Source: Phaeospirillum sp.
GTDB lineage: Bacteria; Pseudomonadota; Alphaproteobacteria; Rhodospirillales; Magnetospirillaceae
Length of the DNA: 64,000 nucleotides
Assembly (NCBI GenBank): GCA_030651575.1
Contig: JAUSFB010000030.1
Coordinates: 248,001 to 312,000 of the forward strand
Direction of reading: 5' to 3'
Below, piece after piece: positions 227 to 12,080 of this stretch. Both the position numbers and the translations under genes were made by a program. Positions within the stretch are counted from its first letter, which is position 1. Each line of letters opens with the position of its first letter. A model generated the notes under the pieces. It saw only the letters and a list, made by a program, of their open reading frames with translations. It had not been told where the DNA came from and ran no database searches.

Positions 227-646
227 ATGCCGCCAGTCGCCGCCGAAATACTCCGACGCATCAATCCAAACATGCTGATCGCCAACGAAGGAAACCTAGT
301 TGTCGGCATCGAGGACTGCGACGATCCCGAGCACCGGATTTACCGGCTCGAATATCGGAGTACCGCGGATGGAGCGCACGCTATCGCGGTGTGTGTCAGC
401 AATCCGTGGGACCGGGATGACCCTACCGCCGGAATGAGCGCGGACCGGGGGCACATCTCGGAAGGCGGGCTGATTCGCCTGGGGCCGGGGGTGGAAGCGG
501 TCCTGGGCGTCGGCGGTGTGCCCCTTGTCGAAAACTCGCCGTTTCACGTCGAGGAGGCGGTCATCCGCGCCCGCTATTGGGTCGCCGCGTTCTCCTGCCG
601 CTACGTGTTCGAGGAACTCCAGCAGATGAAGGAGAACCGGCCATGA
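227..646 (+). CDS. Putative E2 (UBC)-like fold protein lacking the catalytic cysteine
   Basis: A 139-residue protein starting after a good GGGAGGG ribosome site. Residues 76-85 read HISEGGLIRL, which matches the pattern around the ubiquitin-conjugating E2 active site (H-x-x-x-x-G-x-I-C-L), but Arg84 stands where Cys is expected. A preceding Y-x-L-x-Y strand and Asn-Pro turn and a following amphipathic helix also suit an E2/RWD-type fold. Its stop overlaps the next start as ATGA, so it is probably translationally coupled to the JAB peptidase downstream. Pairing of E2-like and JAB proteins is known from bacterial ubiquitin-like conjugation operons. The fold call is inference from a short motif; an unrelated small protein is possible. 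Base use is less GC-rich than the core genes, suggesting transfer. Confidence 0.45.
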   Translation: MPPVAAEILRRINPNMLIANEGNLVVGIEDCDDPEHRIYRLEYRSTADGAHAIAVCVSNPWDRDDPTAGMSADRGHISEGGLIRLGPGVEAVLGVGGVPLVENSPFHVEEAVIRARYWVAAFSCRYVFEELQQMKENRP

Positions 647-2235
647 CCCAGTGGATTGCCGAGACATCCATCCGCGGTGCCCCCAAGGCTCCGTTTCCCA
701 TGTGCTTTACCGCCTCCGCAGCCGAAGAGATCCTGCGGACCATCGGCAGCAAACCGCCGGAAGCTGGTGCCAAATTGTTCGGCCCTAAAGACCATGTGGG
801 GATCGACGTGGTTGAATTCGACATTCATGGCAGCCAGCGAGCCGGCGGGACCGTCTATTCGCCCGACGTGCAATGGGGTAATCGCCGGGTCGATCACCAT
901 CTCGGCCAGAAAGACATTCGGGTCTGGACTGGTGACGGCCACAGCCACCCAGGCAGCATGGGGCACCCGAGCGGGAAATCCGGCGTCGGACTGGGGGACC
1001 TGGGATATGTCGAGCAGGTTTTCCACATGAACGAGTGGATGCAGTACTTCTGCCTACCGATTTTTACCTTTGGCGAAGCGGGGGTTCGCATTCATCCCTG
1101 GATCATCTGCCGGGACAACCCGTTCGTCCCGCTTCTTGCCCCCGAGGTCCGCATCTGCCCTGCGAGCGAGTTTCCTGACCGGCAGTACAACCCCGTCTGG
1201 GAGGCGCGGATCAACCGAACCGCCTTGCCCCAGGCCAAAGAGACCAGCACCGCAAAACCGGCTTCGGCCCCCGCCATCGCGCCGCGGGACGCCTCCGAGG
1301 AGGAGGCCTCCCGCCTTGCCCTGGACGTGACTCGGGTGCGGGACGAAAACGCCCGCCTTCAAGCCGACATCCGCAGGTCGAACGTCGAACACGAACGCAC
1401 TTCCTGCGACCTCCGGACAGCCCAGGCGGAAATCACCGAATTGCAGGATCGGGTGGTCAAGGCAGAGAAGGAAGCGGCTCGCGCCCTGATCTCGCAAATG
1501 TCCGGTCAGTCGGAGAAAACCAAGATGGAAAATCTGATTTCCCAGCAGCGCCAAGAGATCGGAACCCTGAAGGGAATGATTACCGACCTGAGAAACCGCC
1601 ACGACCAGTTGGCGGATGAACTCAGTCGGCTGACTCGGGAAGCCACCAAGCATGGCGACGGTCTCCGCCAGTTGCAAGACGACGTAACCCGCCAGTTTCA
1701 GCAGGTGGTCAAGAGCCTGAGTCAGCTAGAATTGGGGCTGTTGAGCAATGACGGGATGCTCAAGTCAGAAGCCAAGGCCATCCGCGACGGCGTTGGAGCG
1801 ATTCGCGAATTCGCCGAACATAGTATCGAGAAAGTGACGGGAAAATTCGACCGGCAGGCCCGCCAGATTCATTGGTACGGCGGTATAGGCCTCGCCGCGG
1901 CGGCGGCTCTGCTGGCTTGCTTTCTGGCTCTGCGCCAGGACCCGGTTGCGCCCGCCGCCCAGGAGTCGGGCACCCCGGCACAGGTTGCTGCCGTGGATAC
2001 CTCTAGCTTGGAGTCATTGCGCCGCGACATCGCGACCATGTCGGATAAGCTGGCGCGAATGGAAGCTGCTACCGCCGAGCGCTCGGCGGCGGTGGACGGG
2101 GTCTCCCACGCCCTGTCCGTCAACCGTGATGAACTGCGGACAGCCATGTCGATGCTGACCCAGCAGTTCGAAGTAATCGCCGAAAAATTGAAGGAAAAGC
2201 CACAAACAAACCAAGTTGGACGGAAAAATCCGTAA
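643..2235 (+). CDS. Membrane-anchored JAB/JAMM-domain putative isopeptidase
   Basis: A 530-residue protein whose ATG overlaps the stop of the upstream gene. An N-terminal JAB (MPN+) domain spans about residues 15-185. His100-Ser-His102-Pro and Ser110 match the zinc-binding H-S/T-H-P-x6-S part of the JAMM motif, but the usual Asp position holds Ser113 and the nearest Asp is Asp119, so the motif is a variant. Residues about 215-390 are heptad-rich coiled coil. Residues about 411-431 form one transmembrane helix, followed by a second short coiled coil of about 100 residues. JAB proteins next to E2-like proteins act as deubiquitinase-like peptidases in bacterial ubiquitin-like systems. Membrane tethering through a long coiled coil is unusual. 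Substrate unknown; no ubiquitin-like or E1 gene lies inside the window. Confidence 0.6.
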   Translation: MTQWIAETSIRGAPKAPFPMCFTASAAEEILRTIGSKPPEAGAKLFGPKDHVGIDVVEFDIHGSQRAGGTVYSPDVQWGNRRVDHHLGQKDIRVWTGDGHSHPGSMGHPSGKSGVGLGDLGYVEQVFHMNEWMQYFCLPIFTFGEAGVRIHPWIICRDNPFVPLLAPEVRICPASEFPDRQYNPVWEARINRTALPQAKETSTAKPASAPAIAPRDASEEEASRLALDVTRVRDENARLQADIRRSNVEHERTSCDLRTAQAEITELQDRVVKAEKEAARALISQMSGQSEKTKMENLISQQRQEIGTLKGMITDLRNRHDQLADELSRLTREATKHGDGLRQLQDDVTRQFQQVVKSLSQLELGLLSNDGMLKSEAKAIRDGVGAIREFAEHSIEKVTGKFDRQARQIHWYGGIGLAAAAALLACFLALRQDPVAPAAQESGTPAQVAAVDTSSLESLRRDIATMSDKLARMEAATAERSAAVDGVSHALSVNRDELRTAMSMLTQQFEVIAEKLKEKPQTNQVGRKNP

Positions 2236-2736: not shown

Positions 2737-3945
2737 TTACTTGCGGGAGGCGGCTTCGCGGGCACGCCGGACGATGGGGCTTTCGGTTTCGGTTTTCGGG
2801 ACCGCACCCGACGGAGCGGCGGCCACCACGTCGGTGGCGTCGGAGCGCTCGGCCAGCTGATCCAGCACCGTGCGGCGCAGCGCCTCGGGGCGGATGCCCT
2901 TGGCCATGGCCTCGGCGGGGTCGATGGCCACTCCAAGGCGGGCGGCCTGGGCGGCGATGGCGCTGATCTCGGCATATTCGGCGCGCAGGCGCTGCTCCAG
3001 ATCGGCGTTGGCCTGGGCGGGCGGCTGCGGCACGGCAGCCAGAACGGGGACTTCCCCCTGGGATTCGGACATCGGGACTTCCTTTCGGGCGGCGATGGGG
3101 CGGGAAACGGTGGGTCGGGCCAGCACGGCCGCGAGATCAGTCAGGGCGACACGCAGAGTGCCGACCTTGTCGGCCAGACCGGCAGCCACCGCCTGGTCGC
3201 CGCGATAGACCGCAGCCTCGGTGGCCCGCACGGCGTCGGGAGACAGCCGCCGCCGCTCGGCCACCAGGGTGGTGAACTTCCCGTAGAGGGCGTCCACGTC
3301 GGCCTGGAGCGTGGCGCGGGCAGAGTCGGACAGCGGCTGATGCGGGTTGCCATCGACCTTTGCCGCCCCGGCATGGACGAAGGTCCAGGCCAAACCGGCC
3401 TGGGCATCGGCCCCGGATTCGTCGCGATGAACCGCCACCACTCCGATGGAGCCGACCTCGCCGGTCTGGGTGACGTAGAGACGGTCGGCGGTGCAGGCGA
3501 TGGCATAGGCCGCCGACAATGCGGCTTCGTCCGCCACCGCCCAGATCGGCTTGCCACACTGCTGGCGGATCGCCTGGATGTGGTCGACCAGATCGAACAA
3601 GCCGCCGACCTCGCCGCCGGGGGAATCCACGTCCAGCAGGATGGCGCGGACTTTGGGATCGGTAGCCGCCGCCTCGATGGCATTGGCGATGTCCGAATAG
3701 GCGGTCAACCCGCTGGCGGCACCGAGATAGCCCGAGCGCGCCACCAGGGTGCCGATCACCGGCACGATGGCGATGCCGTCGGCCGTCACCTCGACCGTGG
3801 CGGCCGGAACAGGTTCGCCGTCAAAGGACAGCGCCTGCCCGGCCAGCCGGGGAGCGAGCGCCGCCAGAATCACGTCCAGCTTTGCACGCGCGATCAGCAG
3901 CGGCGCGCCGTACAGCCGGGCCGCCACATGGGGAAGGTCATGCAT
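2737..3945 (-). CDS. Phage head maturation protease, S49 (SppA/gpC) family
   Basis: A protein of 402 residues if started at 3945, behind AGGA about nine bases upstream; an upstream ATG at 3984 would overlap the toxin promoter. It has the S49 signature: LLDVDSPGGEVGG for the oxyanion region, then ADEAALSAAYAIA with the catalytic Ser, then TGEVGSIGVV. The Ala/Pro-rich C-terminal part (about 290-402) probably holds the internal scaffold region, as in lambda gpC. This class cleaves scaffold and portal or capsid termini during head assembly. It is the middle of a portal-protease-gpD-gpE series, now separated from the portal by the toxin-antitoxin pair. Confidence 0.8.
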   Translation of the reverse strand: MHDLPHVAARLYGAPLLIARAKLDVILAALAPRLAGQALSFDGEPVPAATVEVTADGIAIVPVIGTLVARSGYLGAASGLTAYSDIANAIEAAATDPKVRAILLDVDSPGGEVGGLFDLVDHIQAIRQQCGKPIWAVADEAALSAAYAIACTADRLYVTQTGEVGSIGVVAVHRDESGADAQAGLAWTFVHAGAAKVDGNPHQPLSDSARATLQADVDALYGKFTTLVAERRRLSPDAVRATEAAVYRGDQAVAAGLADKVGTLRVALTDLAAVLARPTVSRPIAARKEVPMSESQGEVPVLAAVPQPPAQANADLEQRLRAEYAEISAIAAQAARLGVAIDPAEAMAKGIRPEALRRTVLDQLAERSDATDVVAAAPSGAVPKTETESPIVRRAREAASRK

Positions 3946-3957
3946 TTTCGAGATTCC

Positions 3958-3995
3958 TATAAGCCGTTGACTTATATCCGCCAATGGCTTAGGTT
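3958..3995 (+). promoter_or_regulatory. Toxin-antitoxin promoter with inverted-repeat operator
   Basis: TTGACT (3967-3972), 17 bases, then TAGGTT (3990-3995) forms a sigma70-like promoter. TATAAG (3958-3963) and CTTATA (3971-3976) form an inverted repeat with a 7-base spacer over the -35 box, suiting autorepression by the HTH antitoxin. The toxin ATG at 4002 is only about 6 bases past the -10 box, so the transcript may be leaderless. Confidence 0.5.
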
Positions 3996-4001
3996 TGAAT
4001 C

Positions 4002-4271
4002 ATGTTCGAGTGGGACGAAGCCAAGAGCGAGGCCAACCTGCGCAATCGCGGGTTCGATTTCGCCTATGCCACGTTGGTCTTCGATGGCCCCATCCTCGAA
4101 ATGGACGACGACCGTGAGGATTACGGCGAGAAGCGCGTCCAAGTGATCGGACAGGTCGACGACGACATCCTGTTCGTGGTCTTCACCTGGAGGAGCGATA
4201 CTCGTCGCATCATTTCCGCTCGCCTTGCCAACCGGAGGGAACGCGATGTCTACCGTCAAGCTTTCGGCTGA
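4002..4271 (+). CDS. brnT: BrnT-family ribonuclease toxin
   Basis: An 89-residue protein with the BrnT (DUF497) layout: FEWDEAKSEANLRNRGFDF at the N-terminus, a central strand pair, and RIISARLANRRERDVYRQ at the C-terminus. BrnT toxins have a RelE-like fold and cleave RNA. The normal BrnT length is about 90 residues, so the gene is complete. It overlaps the antitoxin gene by 26 bases. The pair sits opposite to the phage genes, between portal and head protease, and looks like an insertion into that module. Confidence 0.85.
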   Translation: MFEWDEAKSEANLRNRGFDFAYATLVFDGPILEMDDDREDYGEKRVQVIGQVDDDILFVVFTWRSDTRRIISARLANRRERDVYRQAFG

Positions 4272-4614
4272 TGAAATTCGCAGCCGCGCTCGCGTCAATC
4301 GGGCCATGATCGCGGCGACCACCGAAGACGATATCGCCCGTCATGCCGCCGAGGACGGTTCGCGCACCGATGATGTCGATCTCAATGCGGCCTTGGCCGA
4401 TGGGCGGCTTCGCGCCACCGATCCCCTCGACGTGGCCGACATCCGGGCCAGGACCGGCCTGTCGCAGGACCGCTTCGCCAGGGCCTTCCACATCAGCCCC
4501 CATACGCTGCGGAACTGGGAGCAAGGCCGGCGTGTCCCCGAGGGGCCGGCGCGGGCGTTGCTGATGGCGATCAAGCGCGATCCCGAATCGGTCATGCGGG
4601 CGTTGCAGGCTTAG
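4246..4614 (+). CDS. HTH-type antitoxin partner of BrnT
   Basis: A 122-residue protein started at the ATG behind GGAGGG (a TTG at 4225 gives a longer, unsupported form). The N-terminal half is acidic and helical and probably wraps the toxin. The C-terminal half holds an XRE/HigA-like helix-turn-helix: DIRARTGLSQDRFARAFHIS then TLRNWEQGRRVP. Most brnT genes pair with the BrnA antitoxin, which has a CopG-like DNA-binding end, so this HTH type is a variant pairing. It probably represses the promoter at 3967. Its 3' end overlaps the convergent portal fragment by about 23 bases. Confidence 0.75.
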   Translation: MSTVKLSADEIRSRARVNRAMIAATTEDDIARHAAEDGSRTDDVDLNAALADGRLRATDPLDVADIRARTGLSQDRFARAFHISPHTLRNWEQGRRVPEGPARALLMAIKRDPESVMRALQA

Positions 4615-5209
4615 GCCGGGGCACCGGCTGCACCGAGGCATTGGCCGGCAGGGGCGGCGGGTCGCCGAAAACCAGCCCCAACCGCTGCTCCCGCGCCTTG
4701 TCGGCGGCGATCTCGGCGTCCACCTGCTCGGCATCGAAGCCGCGCTCGGCCAGGGCCTGGGTGCGGCTTTTCAGGCCGGCGTCGATCTGCTCGATCTCGG
4801 CGCGGGCGTCCTTGAGCGGATCGACCCAGTCCCATTTCGGCGGCAACCACGAACACGCCACCATGCTGGCGCGGTTCTTCTCGTAGCCGGTGATGGCCAA
4901 CGCGCCGGCCATCACCGCAGTGTCCATCCAGCGCTGCCACACCGCCCGGCACAGTTGGTGGACCATCACCGCATGCTGCCACGCATCGATGCGACGGCGA
5001 AATTCCAACAGAGCGAGGCGCGAGTTGGAGTAGTTGGCCTTCAGCATGTCGTTGCTGAGGTAGGCGTAGGGCACCCCCAGCGCCGCCGACACCTGCAGCA
5101 GGGTGCGGTACTGGAAAGCCTCGTAGGAGCCGCCGACATCGGCGGGGGCCGAGGTCTGGATCTGCTCGCCCGGCTCCAGCATCACCACCTGGCCGGGCTG
5201 AACGTCCAT
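4592..5209 (-). pseudogene. Phage portal protein (lambda gpB-like), C-terminal fragment
   Basis: About 205 codons that match the C-terminal part of lambda-type portals: the PG-x-V-x-x-L-x-PGE motif, then Y-x-AFQYRTLLQVSAALGVPY, then YSNSRLALLEFRRR, and a WDWVDPLKD motif before a Pro-rich tail. Full portals are about 500 residues, so more than half is missing upstream. The frame before 5209 does not continue as portal sequence. Portals form the ring through which DNA enters the head; this one cannot work. The last residues are encoded inside the antitoxin gene, which suggests the end was also altered by the toxin-antitoxin insertion. Confidence 0.8.
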
Positions 5210-5336: not shown

Positions 5337-5705
5337 ATGGATGACAGGATCATAGGGATCGGGGCTGCCCCGAACAATCCGCCCGCCACCAGGGAGGAAT
5401 GCCAGCGGCGGCTTGCCGATCTGAAGGACGAGATCGCCGCCATCCGGACGGAGATCGCCGCCGCCGACATGGACCGTCAGGTCGGTGGCAAGCGGATGGA
5501 CGCCCGCTGGTACCACCGTGCCCGCACGGCGTTGCGCCATCGCCAGCGCGAGGCGGCGGAAATCGCCGTCCTGATGGCCCGCCTGCCGGGCCGCAAGGAT
5601 GCGCTGAAAGACACGCTGATCGCCATCTTCCGCGAAGGCTGTGACGAGGGTGGCTGGGCGAAGGTGATGGACGAGGCCCATCGCCGCCTCGGGGGTGCCG
5701 CGTGA
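5337..5705 (+). CDS. Small phage-associated protein, coiled-coil, unknown function
   Basis: A 122-residue protein with GGAG ahead of its ATG. Residues 17-50 are a charged helix (REECQRRLADLKDEIAAIRT), followed by an Arg-rich helical middle and a C-terminal segment with GWAKVMDEAHRRL. It overlaps the start of the next gene (TGA 5703-5705, GTG 5702 or ATG 5705), so the two are probably co-translated. It lies on the early-gene strand of the phage remnant, opposite to the head genes. I recognise no domain. Recombination or nuclease accessory is a guess from context only. Confidence 0.6.
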   Translation: MDDRIIGIGAAPNNPPATREECQRRLADLKDEIAAIRTEIAAADMDRQVGGKRMDARWYHRARTALRHRQREAAEIAVLMARLPGRKDALKDTLIAIFREGCDEGGWAKVMDEAHRRLGGAA

Positions 5706-5782
5706 TGGCCGCCCTGCCGCCCCGCCCGACGCCCACCGTCGAGGCCATCTACGCCGCCTTCGAGGCCAATGCCGAGGACGGC
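5702..5782 (+). pseudogene. 5' fragment of a probable phage PD-(D/E)XK-type nuclease gene
   Basis: Twenty-seven codons, ALPPRPTPTVEAIYAAFEAN then an acidic DGF, resemble the N-terminus I recall for phage exonuclease-type proteins found beside DUF2924/recombinase modules. At about 5,782 the sequence switches abruptly to the 3' part of a gene on the other strand, so the rest of the nuclease is lost. The open frame runs on through antisense sequence and is meaningless there. Identity is recalled from a short N-terminus, so confidence is limited. Confidence 0.45.
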
Positions 5783-5783
5783 T

Positions 5784-6784
5784 TCCCACGACAGCGGCAG
5801 CACGTCGGGCAGGCCGTAGCGGTTCTTGGCCAGGAAGGCCGGACGTTCGGCGGTGTAGAGAACCCGCTCGCCCGACCCCAGCGCCCGGGTCACCTTCTTG
5901 TTGAAGCCGACATCGCTTTTGACGGTGCTGATGCGGTAGTTGGCGAACAGCACCGCGTCGGAATGCTCCTGCATCAGTGCCGCGGCGCGGGCGTGCAGCT
6001 TGATGATGTAGCGGTCGTAGGGCTCGTGCTCGGGGCTGTCGAAGCGCTTGATCTCGGTGTGGGCGATCTGGATCGCCTCGTTCGGCGGGCGATAGTAGAT
6101 CGTCCCGCGGCGCCCGTCGTTCCGGTGGTCGTGGACGCTCGAAAGAGGTCCGCCATGGCGAACAATCAGCATGATCGATGCGGGATGGGCGGTGGTAGCA
6201 GGAAGATCGAGCGCCTTGACGGTGCAGGCGGTCTTGAGTTGGAGGACCTTCGTGATCTTCGTGGCGAGGGCGGCCTCGTCGATCGTACCCGAATCCAGAT
6301 TGATTGCCTTTTCGAGTTCCACCTCGAAGGCATCGTACAGCTTGCCGTAGTCCCTGAATTTCCTTGCGAAATGGAAACTCTCGGCATCTTCGAACGTCTG
6401 GCGGGCGTTCAGGAACGCCCAGATGCTTCTGCAGAGTTGGTCGGGCTGTCGGTCGAACTCGATTGATTGCTCTTCGGCAAATTGCTGTTCCGCGATGGCC
6501 GTGAGGGAATCGATGCCTTTACCCTCGGCCAGGGCCAGAATTCTGCGTGATCGCTGCTCTGCGGGGCGCAGTTCATCCGGGTCGAATGCCGACAAGGTCT
6601 GGATCAGGTCGTGCCGAAACGCGTCTACAGCTTCGTCATCGGTCGGATCGGGAGCCTCGGCAGGCAGGCCGAAATCAGGCTCGTTTTCCCCCTCCCTTAC
6701 TGCCAGAACGGCTCGGGCAAGATCGATGCGCGCATCTTCGATCAGCGCAAGAATATGGGGTCCGATGCGAATTGCGCGCGCCAT
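5784..6784 (-). pseudogene. Unknown protein, 3'-truncated at a tail-to-tail junction
   Basis: A minus-strand gene starts at 6784 behind a strong GAGGTGAG site and codes about 330 sensible residues. It is acidic at the N-terminus (EGENEPDFGL, PDPTDDEAVDAF), has a QPDQLCRSIWAFLNARQTF segment, and later YYRPPNEAIQIAHTEIKRF and YDRYIIKLHARAAAL. After VLPLSW the frame reads antisense through the phage nuclease start and the small gene before it, with no stop until 5477. That tail is an artefact of the junction. I recognise no family. The base composition is less GC-rich than the core. It may come from a different mobile or defence element than its neighbours. Confidence 0.5.
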
Positions 6785-7175: not shown

Positions 7176-7621
7176 GCACTGCAATCCTCACCCAGGTGGC
7201 CGAATTGCCCACCTTGCCGACGCCCAGGCTGAAGGCCATGTGGCGCGAACTGACCGGCACCGAGCCGCCGCCCTACAACCGCACCTTCCTGGTCAAACGC
7301 TTGGCCTACCGGATTCAGGAGTTGGCCTTCGGCGGCCTGTCGGTCAAAGCCGAGCGCCGCCTCGACGACTTGGTCGAGGAGTTGGACGGCAAGAAGAAGC
7401 CGAAGCCCAAGGATATGACAGCCCCCGTCGTCGGCACCAAGTTGATCCGGGAATGGCAGGGGGTGCTGCACGAGGTGACGGCGCTGGCTGATGGCTTCGA
7501 GTGGCAGGGGCGCCGCTACCAGAGCCTGTCGGCGGTCGCCCGCGCCATCACCGGCACCCGATGGAATGGCCCCCTGTTTTTCGGCCTGCGCAAGCACGGT
7601 GCCTTGGGAGGTGGCCGATGA
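7172..7621 (+). CDS. DUF2924 domain protein
   Basis: A 149-residue protein with the DUF2924 pattern: LPTPRLKAMWRELTGTEPP, then RTFLVKRLAYRIQELAFGGL, a Lys-rich linker, and a C-terminal GTKLIREWQG...EWQGRRYQSLSAVARAITG segment. The last part resembles a small DNA-binding fold also found in recombinase partners. Function is unproven, but DUF2924 genes nearly always precede a large serine recombinase, as here, with ATGA overlaps on both sides. It probably aids or regulates excision and integration. Confidence 0.85.
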   Translation: MSTAILTQVAELPTLPTPRLKAMWRELTGTEPPPYNRTFLVKRLAYRIQELAFGGLSVKAERRLDDLVEELDGKKKPKPKDMTAPVVGTKLIREWQGVLHEVTALADGFEWQGRRYQSLSAVARAITGTRWNGPLFFGLRKHGALGGGR

Positions 7622-8676
7622 GCGCCGCCGCCAAGCCCCTGCGCAAAGTCCGCTGCGCCATCTATACCCGCAAATCCTCGGAAGAGGGGCTGGAGATGGA
7701 ATTCAACAGTCTCGACGCCCAGCGGGAATCCTGCGCCGCCTACATCGCCAGCCAGAAGGCCGAGGGCTGGGTGCCGGTGCCCGACCATTACGATGACGGC
7801 GGTTTCTCCGGCGGCAACCTGGAACGCCCGGCGCTGAGGCGCCTGCTGGCCGATATCGAGTCCGGGCTGATCGATGTGGTGGTGGTTTACAAGATCGACC
7901 GCCTCAGCCGTTCGCTGATGGACTTTTCCAAGCTGGTCGAGGTGTTCGACCGCAACGCCGTCACCTTCGTGTCGGTGACCCAGTCGTTCAACACCACCAC
8001 CTCCATGGGCCGGCTGACTCTTAACATCCTTTTGTCCTTCGCCCAGTTCGAGCGCGAGGTGATCGGCGAACGTATCCGCGACAAATTCGCCGCCTCGCGC
8101 CGCAAAGGGATGTGGATGGGCGGGGTCCCGCCGCTCGGCTACGACGTGGTCGCCCGCAAGCTGGTGGTCAATCCCGCCGAGGCCGATCTGGTCCGCCACA
8201 TCTTCGACCGCTTCCTCAAGATCGGCTCCGCCACCCTGCTGGTGAAGGAACTAAACGCCGCCGGTTACCGCACCAAGTCCTGGACCACCCAGGACGGCAA
8301 GGCCCGCGACGGCGTGCCGGACGTGGACCTAGTGGCGTTCATGCGGGTTACGCACAGTCGCCGTATCTTTATTCAACAAATCGGTCGCGGCCTGCGGACC
8401 AGTCCCAAGAAGGACAAGGTCATCGTCCTCGACTTCGTCAGCGACCTGCGGCGGTTGGCTGAAGTGGTGGAGTTGGAGAAGGCCGCCAAGGGCGGCGACC
8501 TCGAGCAATTGCCCATGGGGTCCAATATCGTCCGCTTCCGGGAAGCCTCCGCAGGCAGTTTCATGGTCGAGTGGCTGAAGGATCAGGCCGACCTGATGCT
8601 GCGCGAAGGAGAATCCAATTTGGAGATTCCGATGTTCGACTTCCCCGACGTCCCGCAACCGGGGAGCGTGCAATGA
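7618..8676 (+). pseudogene. Serine recombinase N-terminus fused in frame to an SF2 helicase C-terminus
   Basis: Residues 1-232 are a large serine recombinase: catalytic Ser in YTRKSSEEG, then LDAQRESC, VVYKIDRLSRS, LLSFAQFEREVIGERIRDK and GGVPPLGYD, followed by the start of the recombinase domain. At Gly232 (base about 8,313) this ends. Residues 233-352 are the C-terminal motifs of a DEAD/DEAH helicase: a DLVAFMRVTHSRRIF motif V-like segment, QQIGRGLRTSP (motif VI) and VIVLDFVSDLRRLAE. The zinc-ribbon/coiled-coil end of the recombinase and the ATPase half of the helicase are both absent. I read it as a deletion scar that stayed in frame. The recombinase is very unlikely to integrate DNA. It is translationally coupled to DUF2924 upstream and to the gene downstream. 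Confidence 0.8.

Positions 8677-10277: not shown

Positions 10278-12080
<1,803 letters not shown>

Follow-up and report, generated by a model that had tools for sequence, protein, structure and literature searches.

Type II CBASS, the operon type 6e, and the tail genes of lambdoid phages are the described systems closest to the locus studied here. In type II CBASS, Cap3 cleaves cyclase conjugates, according to the part of the source available (PMC10097602). Operon type 6e, in the available passages of Iyer et al. 2006 (PMC1779556), combines a Cys-less RWD-like E2 with an E1-like protein that is mostly fused to a JAB domain. The same passages describe JABs in phage tail operons, and place the I gene of lambdoid phages between K, which encodes JAB and NlpC/P60 domains, and J.

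Here we characterize a two-gene cassette (ORF A and ORF B) in a 64,000-nucleotide stretch of DNA, the window (G000:C70:248001–312000, on a contig, C70, of 395,622 bases). ORF B shares with Cap3-kind JABs a collinear Glu, HxH, and Pro-Ser motif, and JABs of this kind supply its weak but best profile matches; it differs from them in having a displaced Asp, a coiled coil, and a transmembrane segment, and its contig has no cyclase or E1 match. ORF A contains the motif H-[IV]-x3-G-x-[IL]-x-[LV] of the E2 domain of CBASS Cap2 (Pfam Prok-E2_B), but has no profile match to it, carries Arg in place of Cys, and is not fused to an E1. A Cys-less E2-like neighbor of a JAB is already described for type 6e, which, in the passages available, carries an E1-like gene and Ub-like domains (PMC1779556), whereas the contig of ORF A and ORF B has no E1 match and no Ubl was recognized by eye. 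As in lambda K/I (JAB and Ub-like), a JAB lies near J in a lambdoid-type locus, but ORF B is on the other strand, has another domain layout, and has no sequence match to these proteins. We read the cassette, with a probability of about one in three, as a two-gene cargo operon in a decayed lambda-like prophage, made up of a membrane-held divergent JAMM protein and a small partner.

Gene structure of the cassette

ORF A (227–646, + strand) encodes 139 amino acids of unproven fold, proposed to be E2-like and having Arg in place of the catalytic Cys. ORF B (643–2235, + strand) encodes 530 amino acids from the ATG at 643, and is composed of a JAB-like domain, a coiled coil, a transmembrane helix, and a helical tail. 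The end of ORF A and the start of ORF B are joined by an ATGA overlap (TGA/ATG). Shine-Dalgarno-like sites were read directly in the sequence ahead of ORF A (GGGAGG, 216–221, + strand) and, within ORF A, ahead of ORF B (AAGGAG, 629–634, + strand). With both frames, their overlap, and both sites present, the ATGA-coupled two-gene cassette put forward by a sequence-only reading of this DNA is confirmed. The GC content by codon position is gene-like in ORF A (0.705/0.439/0.763) and ORF B (0.651/0.457/0.728), and the GC content of the cassette (0.616) is lower than that of the window (0.663).

Prophage setting

A tail J-like phage remnant lies to the left of ORF A, with its end at 2–187 of the window (− strand). 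The piece extends beyond the window and spans L002:15651–16187 (−), L002 being 16 kb of DNA fetched to the left of the window, such that window base 1 is L002 base 16001. It is an internal fragment (PHROG 469, E 3.8e-14; PHROG 31, central tail fiber J, 1.9e-9; Pfam Phage-tail_3, 5.7e-10). A large PAS/histidine kinase gene to its left ends at L002 15409. To the right of the cassette, and likewise on the minus strand, are genes for a lambda D-like head decoration protein (2335–2724; Pfam PF02924, E 2.3e-33), a lambda C-like S49 peptidase (2737–3984; Pfam PF01343, E 3.3e-32), and the C-terminal fragment of a lambda-type portal protein (4592–5209; Pfam PF05136, profile positions 278–354 of 354). 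The tail-J fragment on the left and the head decoration and S49 peptidase genes on the right agree with the decayed prophage that had been recognized from the sequence. Farther right, the remnant contains DUF2924, a resolvase-family frame, and an AAA_24 fragment. Since a lepA-like gene at 10278–12080 (named by eye) resembles host sequence, the right end of the remnant is probably between 9.2 and 10.3 kb.

Three other parts of the remnant were noted in passing. A BrnT toxin gene and an HTH (BrnA-like) antitoxin-like partner are located at 4002–4614 (+ strand), with the S49 peptidase remnant on one side and the portal remnant on the other. A frame of 435 amino acids occurs at 5477–6784 (− strand), and its AAA_24 match covers only the last 71 of 195 profile positions. 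The frame at 7501–8676 opens with serine recombinase sequence (Resolvase, E 4.6e-38); its residues 272–317 match part of the PADLOC type IV restriction and PbeA models, as if decay had joined two genes.

In lambda, the remaining head and tail genes sit between D and J. The cassette occupies the place between the tail-J and head-D remnants, which makes it either cargo of the prophage or a replacement; it sits close to one end of the remnant, whose limits we infer to be ~10 kb apart. ORF A and ORF B are oriented opposite to the adjoining phage genes. A defense role for the cassette is possible from this location.

The adjacency of a JAB-like domain and a J remnant recalls the lambdoid K-I-J order (available passages of PMC1779556), and ORF B might on this account be what remains of a lambda-type tail-assembly K gene (JAB-NlpC/P60). 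This origin is disfavored, and we regard it as highly improbable: ORF B is opposite in strand to the phage late genes, its JAB part has no PHROG match, and its Pfam matches include no NlpC/P60 domain, with a coil and a transmembrane helix found instead. ORF B was rejected as tail protein K on the grounds of strand and of the missing PHROG match for the JAB part.

JAB-like domain of ORF B

The JAB-like domain of ORF B spans residues ~22–160 (706–1122, + strand; approximate limits), as delimited by the PADLOC models PDLC00898 and PDLC00891, both labeled simply JAB, and by a profile of five JABs. Residues 1–206 gave weak, collinear matches to PDLC00898 (E 0.0027, residues 39–112 on profile positions 40–112) and PDLC00891 (E 0.017, residues 36–112). 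When full-length ORF B was used, the E-value for PDLC00898 was 0.012, ranking below coiled-coil matches. Pfam Prok-JAB did not match ORF B, and the matches from Pfam, NCBIfam, and PHROGs were weak and mostly to coiled-coil families.

Of the JAMM motif, ORF B has the catalytic Glu, the HxH, and the Ser, in the expected order. Glu40 (760–762, + strand), in the sequence PPEAGAKLFG, is the candidate catalytic Glu and is invariant in an alignment of 10 rows. It is followed by GDGHSHPGSMGHPS (residues 97–110; 931–972, + strand), which aligns with the JAMM motif and contains its His100, His102, and Ser110. Glu40, Gly97, His100, His102, Pro103, Pro109, and Ser110 are common to ORF B and the nine other JABs in this alignment, these being nine of 13 JABs selected by a pattern that included SxxD; Ile154 is also invariant, but is located in a badly aligned part. 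The candidate third metal ligand is Asp119 (997–999, + strand), the next Asp after Ser110, which comes six residues later than in HxHx7SxxD, with position 113 being Ser. With SxxD split by a six-residue insertion, catalysis may be lost, so activity is uncertain, although the insertion could leave Asp119 at the metal site.

The significance of these resemblances was evaluated against shuffled sequences. The profile of five JABs (L037 and four of 36 JAB loci, picked for an EAG-x-LF-like likeness to ORF B near the Glu) scored ORF B at 9.1 bits, as compared with 7.6 bits for the best of 2000 shuffles (0/2000 reaching the score). With a profile of nine JABs, ORF B scored 6.7 bits, and 0/500 and 1/2000 shuffles scored at or above this value. 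The pattern G..H.HP.{5}PS occurred in 3/200000 shuffles and in one of the 280 long frames of the window. As the profiles and patterns were chosen after the motif had been seen, these tests do not amount to proof. Alignment with JABs by hhalign gave a probability of 8% (E 0.0043, 19 columns), and a single-sequence structure model of the JAB part had a mean pLDDT of 31. We consider the N-terminal part of ORF B to be probably a divergent JAB domain, as judged from these comparisons. The JAB/JAMM assignment of the earlier reading is thus retained as to a likely divergent domain with a JAMM-like motif, and weakened by the displaced Asp of SxxD and the unmatched Pfam Prok-JAB.

Among 289 genomes, PDLC00898 had matches at E ≤ 1e-4 in 12, and the genome carrying the cassette was not among these. 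The best match (E 1.8e-49; L037, in L037/L089) adjoins an E1-E2 protein (ThiF and Prok-E2_B) and a DncV-like cyclase, and the same cyclase and E1-E2 pair occur in the surroundings (L095) of a second JAB, L054. Judging from these two neighborhoods, the models nearest ORF B appear to represent the type II CBASS (Cap3) kind. Stand-alone JABs of that kind (L037, L051, L054, L059, and L060) have stop-to-stop frames of 167–242 amino acids, and unlike ORF B have the SxxD spacing intact.

Coiled coil, membrane segment, and tail of ORF B

The JAB-like domain is followed by a long coiled coil at residues 217–400 (1291–1842, + strand), which has weak matches to coiled-coil families and a heptad power reached by 0/1000 shuffles. 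By part, the heptad signal was reached by 0/1000 shuffles for residues 320–400 and by 28/1000 for residues 225–320 alone. A transmembrane helix occurs at residues 412–430 (1876–1932, + strand; Kyte-Doolittle 19-residue mean of 2.05). Its positive N-terminal flank has Lys/Arg/Arg ahead of the helix, and an acidic Pro-rich stretch lies behind it, so the JAB end of the protein is probably inside. Residues 452–523 (1996–2211, + strand) form a helical-looking C-terminal region that would be periplasmic. The heptad signal in this region is weak (55/1000 shuffles, best period 3.80). Accordingly, the long coiled coil and the transmembrane helix stand as first proposed from the sequence, whereas the proposed second coiled coil stands only as a region that looks helical. 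In the literature surveyed, consisting of the starts of abstracts and of passages, no coiled-coil, transmembrane-anchored JAB was found described.

ORF A and the question of an E2 fold

ORF A has a sole E2-like signature, the motif HISEGGLIRL (residues 76–85; 452–481, + strand), seen by alignment. GHISEGGLIRL aligns with the PHIEAGGRLCL-type motif of CBASS E2 domains, and has Arg at the position of the catalytic Cys; the Cys residues of ORF A are at positions 31, 56, and 124. Because Cys-less members have been described (available passages of PMC1779556), the missing Cys bars an active E2 but not an E2 fold. The motif pattern occurred in 1015/200000 shuffles and in 3 of the 280 long window frames, and is therefore weak evidence.

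E2 profiles of four and seven rows gave no hit on ORF A, although shuffles obtained some score in 1465/2000 and 1320/2000 cases. The seven-row profile, built from seven of 16 fetched loci, is sound, since it recognized solved E2s (UBE2L3, E 1.3e-5). With hhalign, ORF A and E2 aligned with a probability of 0.3% (E 0.18), and no E2 match for ORF A was found in Pfam, NCBIfam, PADLOC, PHROGs, or PDB sequences. The single-sequence model of ORF A (pLDDT 38) has a helix-strands-helix order, which would suit the UBC fold as well as others. A Foldseek search with this low-confidence model returned nothing at E ≤ 0.001 and named no UBC among the best 50 of 608 matches; because structure prediction without homologues failed, this outcome is meaningless. 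The proposal that ORF A is E2-like, which these comparisons leave with a single motif and the strand order of a low-confidence model, is not supported.

The Nudix hydrolase YfcD supplied the best single matches to ORF A (NCBIfam, E 0.043; PDB 2fkb, E 0.079; genome G1030, E 0.0076). Against one YfcD, ORF A scored 18.6 bits, as compared with 7.7 bits for the best of 2000 shuffles, in a test with the same weakness as those for the JAB, namely that the comparison was picked after the match had been seen. These scores, together with the weak JAB scores of ORF B, would fit a degenerate Nudix-like ORF A alongside an ORF B that is no JAB enzyme but a structural protein of the membrane whose HxH motif is due to chance. 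The YfcD match, however, spans ~40 residues of ORF A and was picked as the best from large libraries, the Nudix box is absent from ORF A, and the JAB pattern of ORF B is rare in both shuffles and window frames, as given above. We consider this explanation of the two proteins unlikely.

Partner genes in the genome

No ThiF/E1 match and no SMODS cyclase match were found on contig C70. The locus thus has neither the ThiF nor the SMODS match of type II CBASS, nor the ThiF match of the E1 in a Bil or Ubl-conjugation operon. Of the ORFs of ≥80 amino acids in the 16 kb to the left of the window that passed a filter for GC content, none was recognized by eye as an E1 or Ubl gene, in keeping with the earlier observation that no E1 is visible. 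ThiF had two matches in the genome, on C20 and C42. The former is a MoeB-type gene beside a cysK-like gene (by eye), and the latter (L107) is also a MoeB-type gene; the 9 kb fetched around it have a GC content of 0.484 versus 0.663 for the window, and C42 was therefore set aside as probably foreign. Prok-E2_B had no match in the genome. Prok-JAB matched an ordinary-looking JAB frame of 171 amino acids on C31 and a RadC-like protein on C71 (both named by eye). Given the absent partner matches, no conjugation cascade is visible for the ORF A/ORF B pair, and the ubiquitin-like conjugation system to which the E2-JAB pairing had pointed was not upheld.

As a separate observation, the one SMODS cyclase found in the genome is a CD-NTase at C7:58480–58974 (L106 8090–8974, − strand; SMODS, E 1.7e-52). 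It is followed by a two-transmembrane protein of 228 amino acids, SLATT-like by eye, forming a compact CBASS without a ThiF match on C7.

The pair might still be a stripped fragment of a ubiquitin-like conjugation system, an E2 and a JAB that use an E1 and a Ubl encoded elsewhere. The resemblance of the ORF A motif to CBASS E2 domains, the proximity of the ORF B JAB to Cap3-kind models, and the helix-strands-helix order of the low-confidence ORF A model are consistent with such a fragment. It is rather unlikely, however, as ORF A has neither an E2 model match nor the Cys, the two ThiF genes of the genome are the MoeB-type gene beside the cysK-like gene and the one on the probably foreign contig, and the sole SMODS cyclase found, on C7, adjoins the SLATT-like protein with no ThiF on that contig.

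Search for relatives

Full-length ORF B had no homologue in the genome contig collection, and none was recognized in the viral contig collection, in scans that rely on exact short peptide or DNA patterns. The motif pattern gave 19 stretches in the genome contigs, only one of which (L021, a frame of 534 amino acids from Chryseobacterium) had a JAB-like stretch by eye; 22 residues of L021 and ORF B aligned at the motif used for selection (10.4 bits, 0/2000 shuffles). In the viral contigs, one scan gave two stretches, of which L012 was a JAB by eye. No match for the cassette was found by tblastn in plasmids or in 50,697 phage records.

Whole-genome searches at E ≤ 0.01 gave matches in 1/60, 6/385, 3/317, and 5/398 genomes, in sets that overlap (the 317 belong to an order-level search), and the genome of the cassette was among the matches in each. 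Nine other short pieces from these searches (E 0.0008–0.009) were judged by eye to be chance matches, from surrounding frames filtered by length and in some cases by GC: three have internal stops, and the others are within or opposite synthetase-like, phospholipase D-like, and Nudix YfcD-like genes. With a profile of the JAB family to which ORF B had been added, JABs were detected in at least 174 of 398 genomes. Thirty-six of these loci, 30 taken by score and six chosen for long frames, were viewed by eye, and in none was a JAB followed by a coil and a transmembrane helix (six frames of >420 amino acids were seen in part). The survey of homologous pairs and their neighbors that had been suggested therefore yielded no recognized relative in the collections and genomes searched, and relatives outside the sampled sets are quite possible. 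As no homologue was found, structure prediction failed, and no residue of ORF B is backed by conservation.

The phage records bear on whether the cassette serves prophage counter-defense, with ORF B removing the cyclase or Ubl conjugates that type II CBASS or a Bil-like system produces and ORF A acting as a Cys-less decoy E2. The phage location, the Arg at the Cys position of ORF A, and the closeness of the JAB to models of the Cap3 kind, which in the available part of PMC10097602 cleaves cyclase conjugates, are compatible with this role. Set against it are the unsupported E2 identity of ORF A, the lack of a match among the phage records, and a host genome in which no E1-E2 was found as a target, and we view it as quite improbable.

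Discussion

We favor a two-gene cargo operon of a decayed lambda-like prophage, in which ORF B would carry a divergent JAMM (JAB/MPN) metalloprotease domain on the cytosolic side of the membrane. Of the models tried, those of Cap3-kind JABs come nearest to this domain. The protein would be attached to the inner membrane through a coiled coil of ~180 residues, a single transmembrane helix, and an external helical tail, and the coil would cluster it there. ORF A may bind ORF B or the substrate of ORF B, and might be a Cys-less E2-fold (UEV/RWD-like) adaptor; in such a role it would present substrate to ORF B. When a phage enters or the cell is under stress, the JAMM site could then cleave a target close to the membrane at a peptide or isopeptide bond, leading perhaps to superinfection exclusion or defense, or to an interaction with the host.

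A more elaborate possibility, which we hold to be very improbable, is that the cassette is a prophage device for disarming Ubl conjugation, with a Cys-less decoy E2 occupying the E1 or its target, and a membrane-clustered JAMM deconjugase stripping conjugates of cyclase or Ubl where the phage enters. If true, no earlier two-part anti-conjugation module and no earlier coiled-coil, transmembrane-anchored JAB would be known to us.

Should ORF B of the favored cargo operon not be an active JAMM enzyme, the locus would illustrate how readily a ubiquitin system can be suggested by a short HSHP motif and a single H..G motif. Should it be active, a coiled coil would be clustering a deconjugase-type protease at the inner membrane, a layout not found described in the abstract starts and passages surveyed, and the question would become what such an enzyme cleaves there, whether a conjugate or a peptide, given that the cell has no visible dedicated E1.
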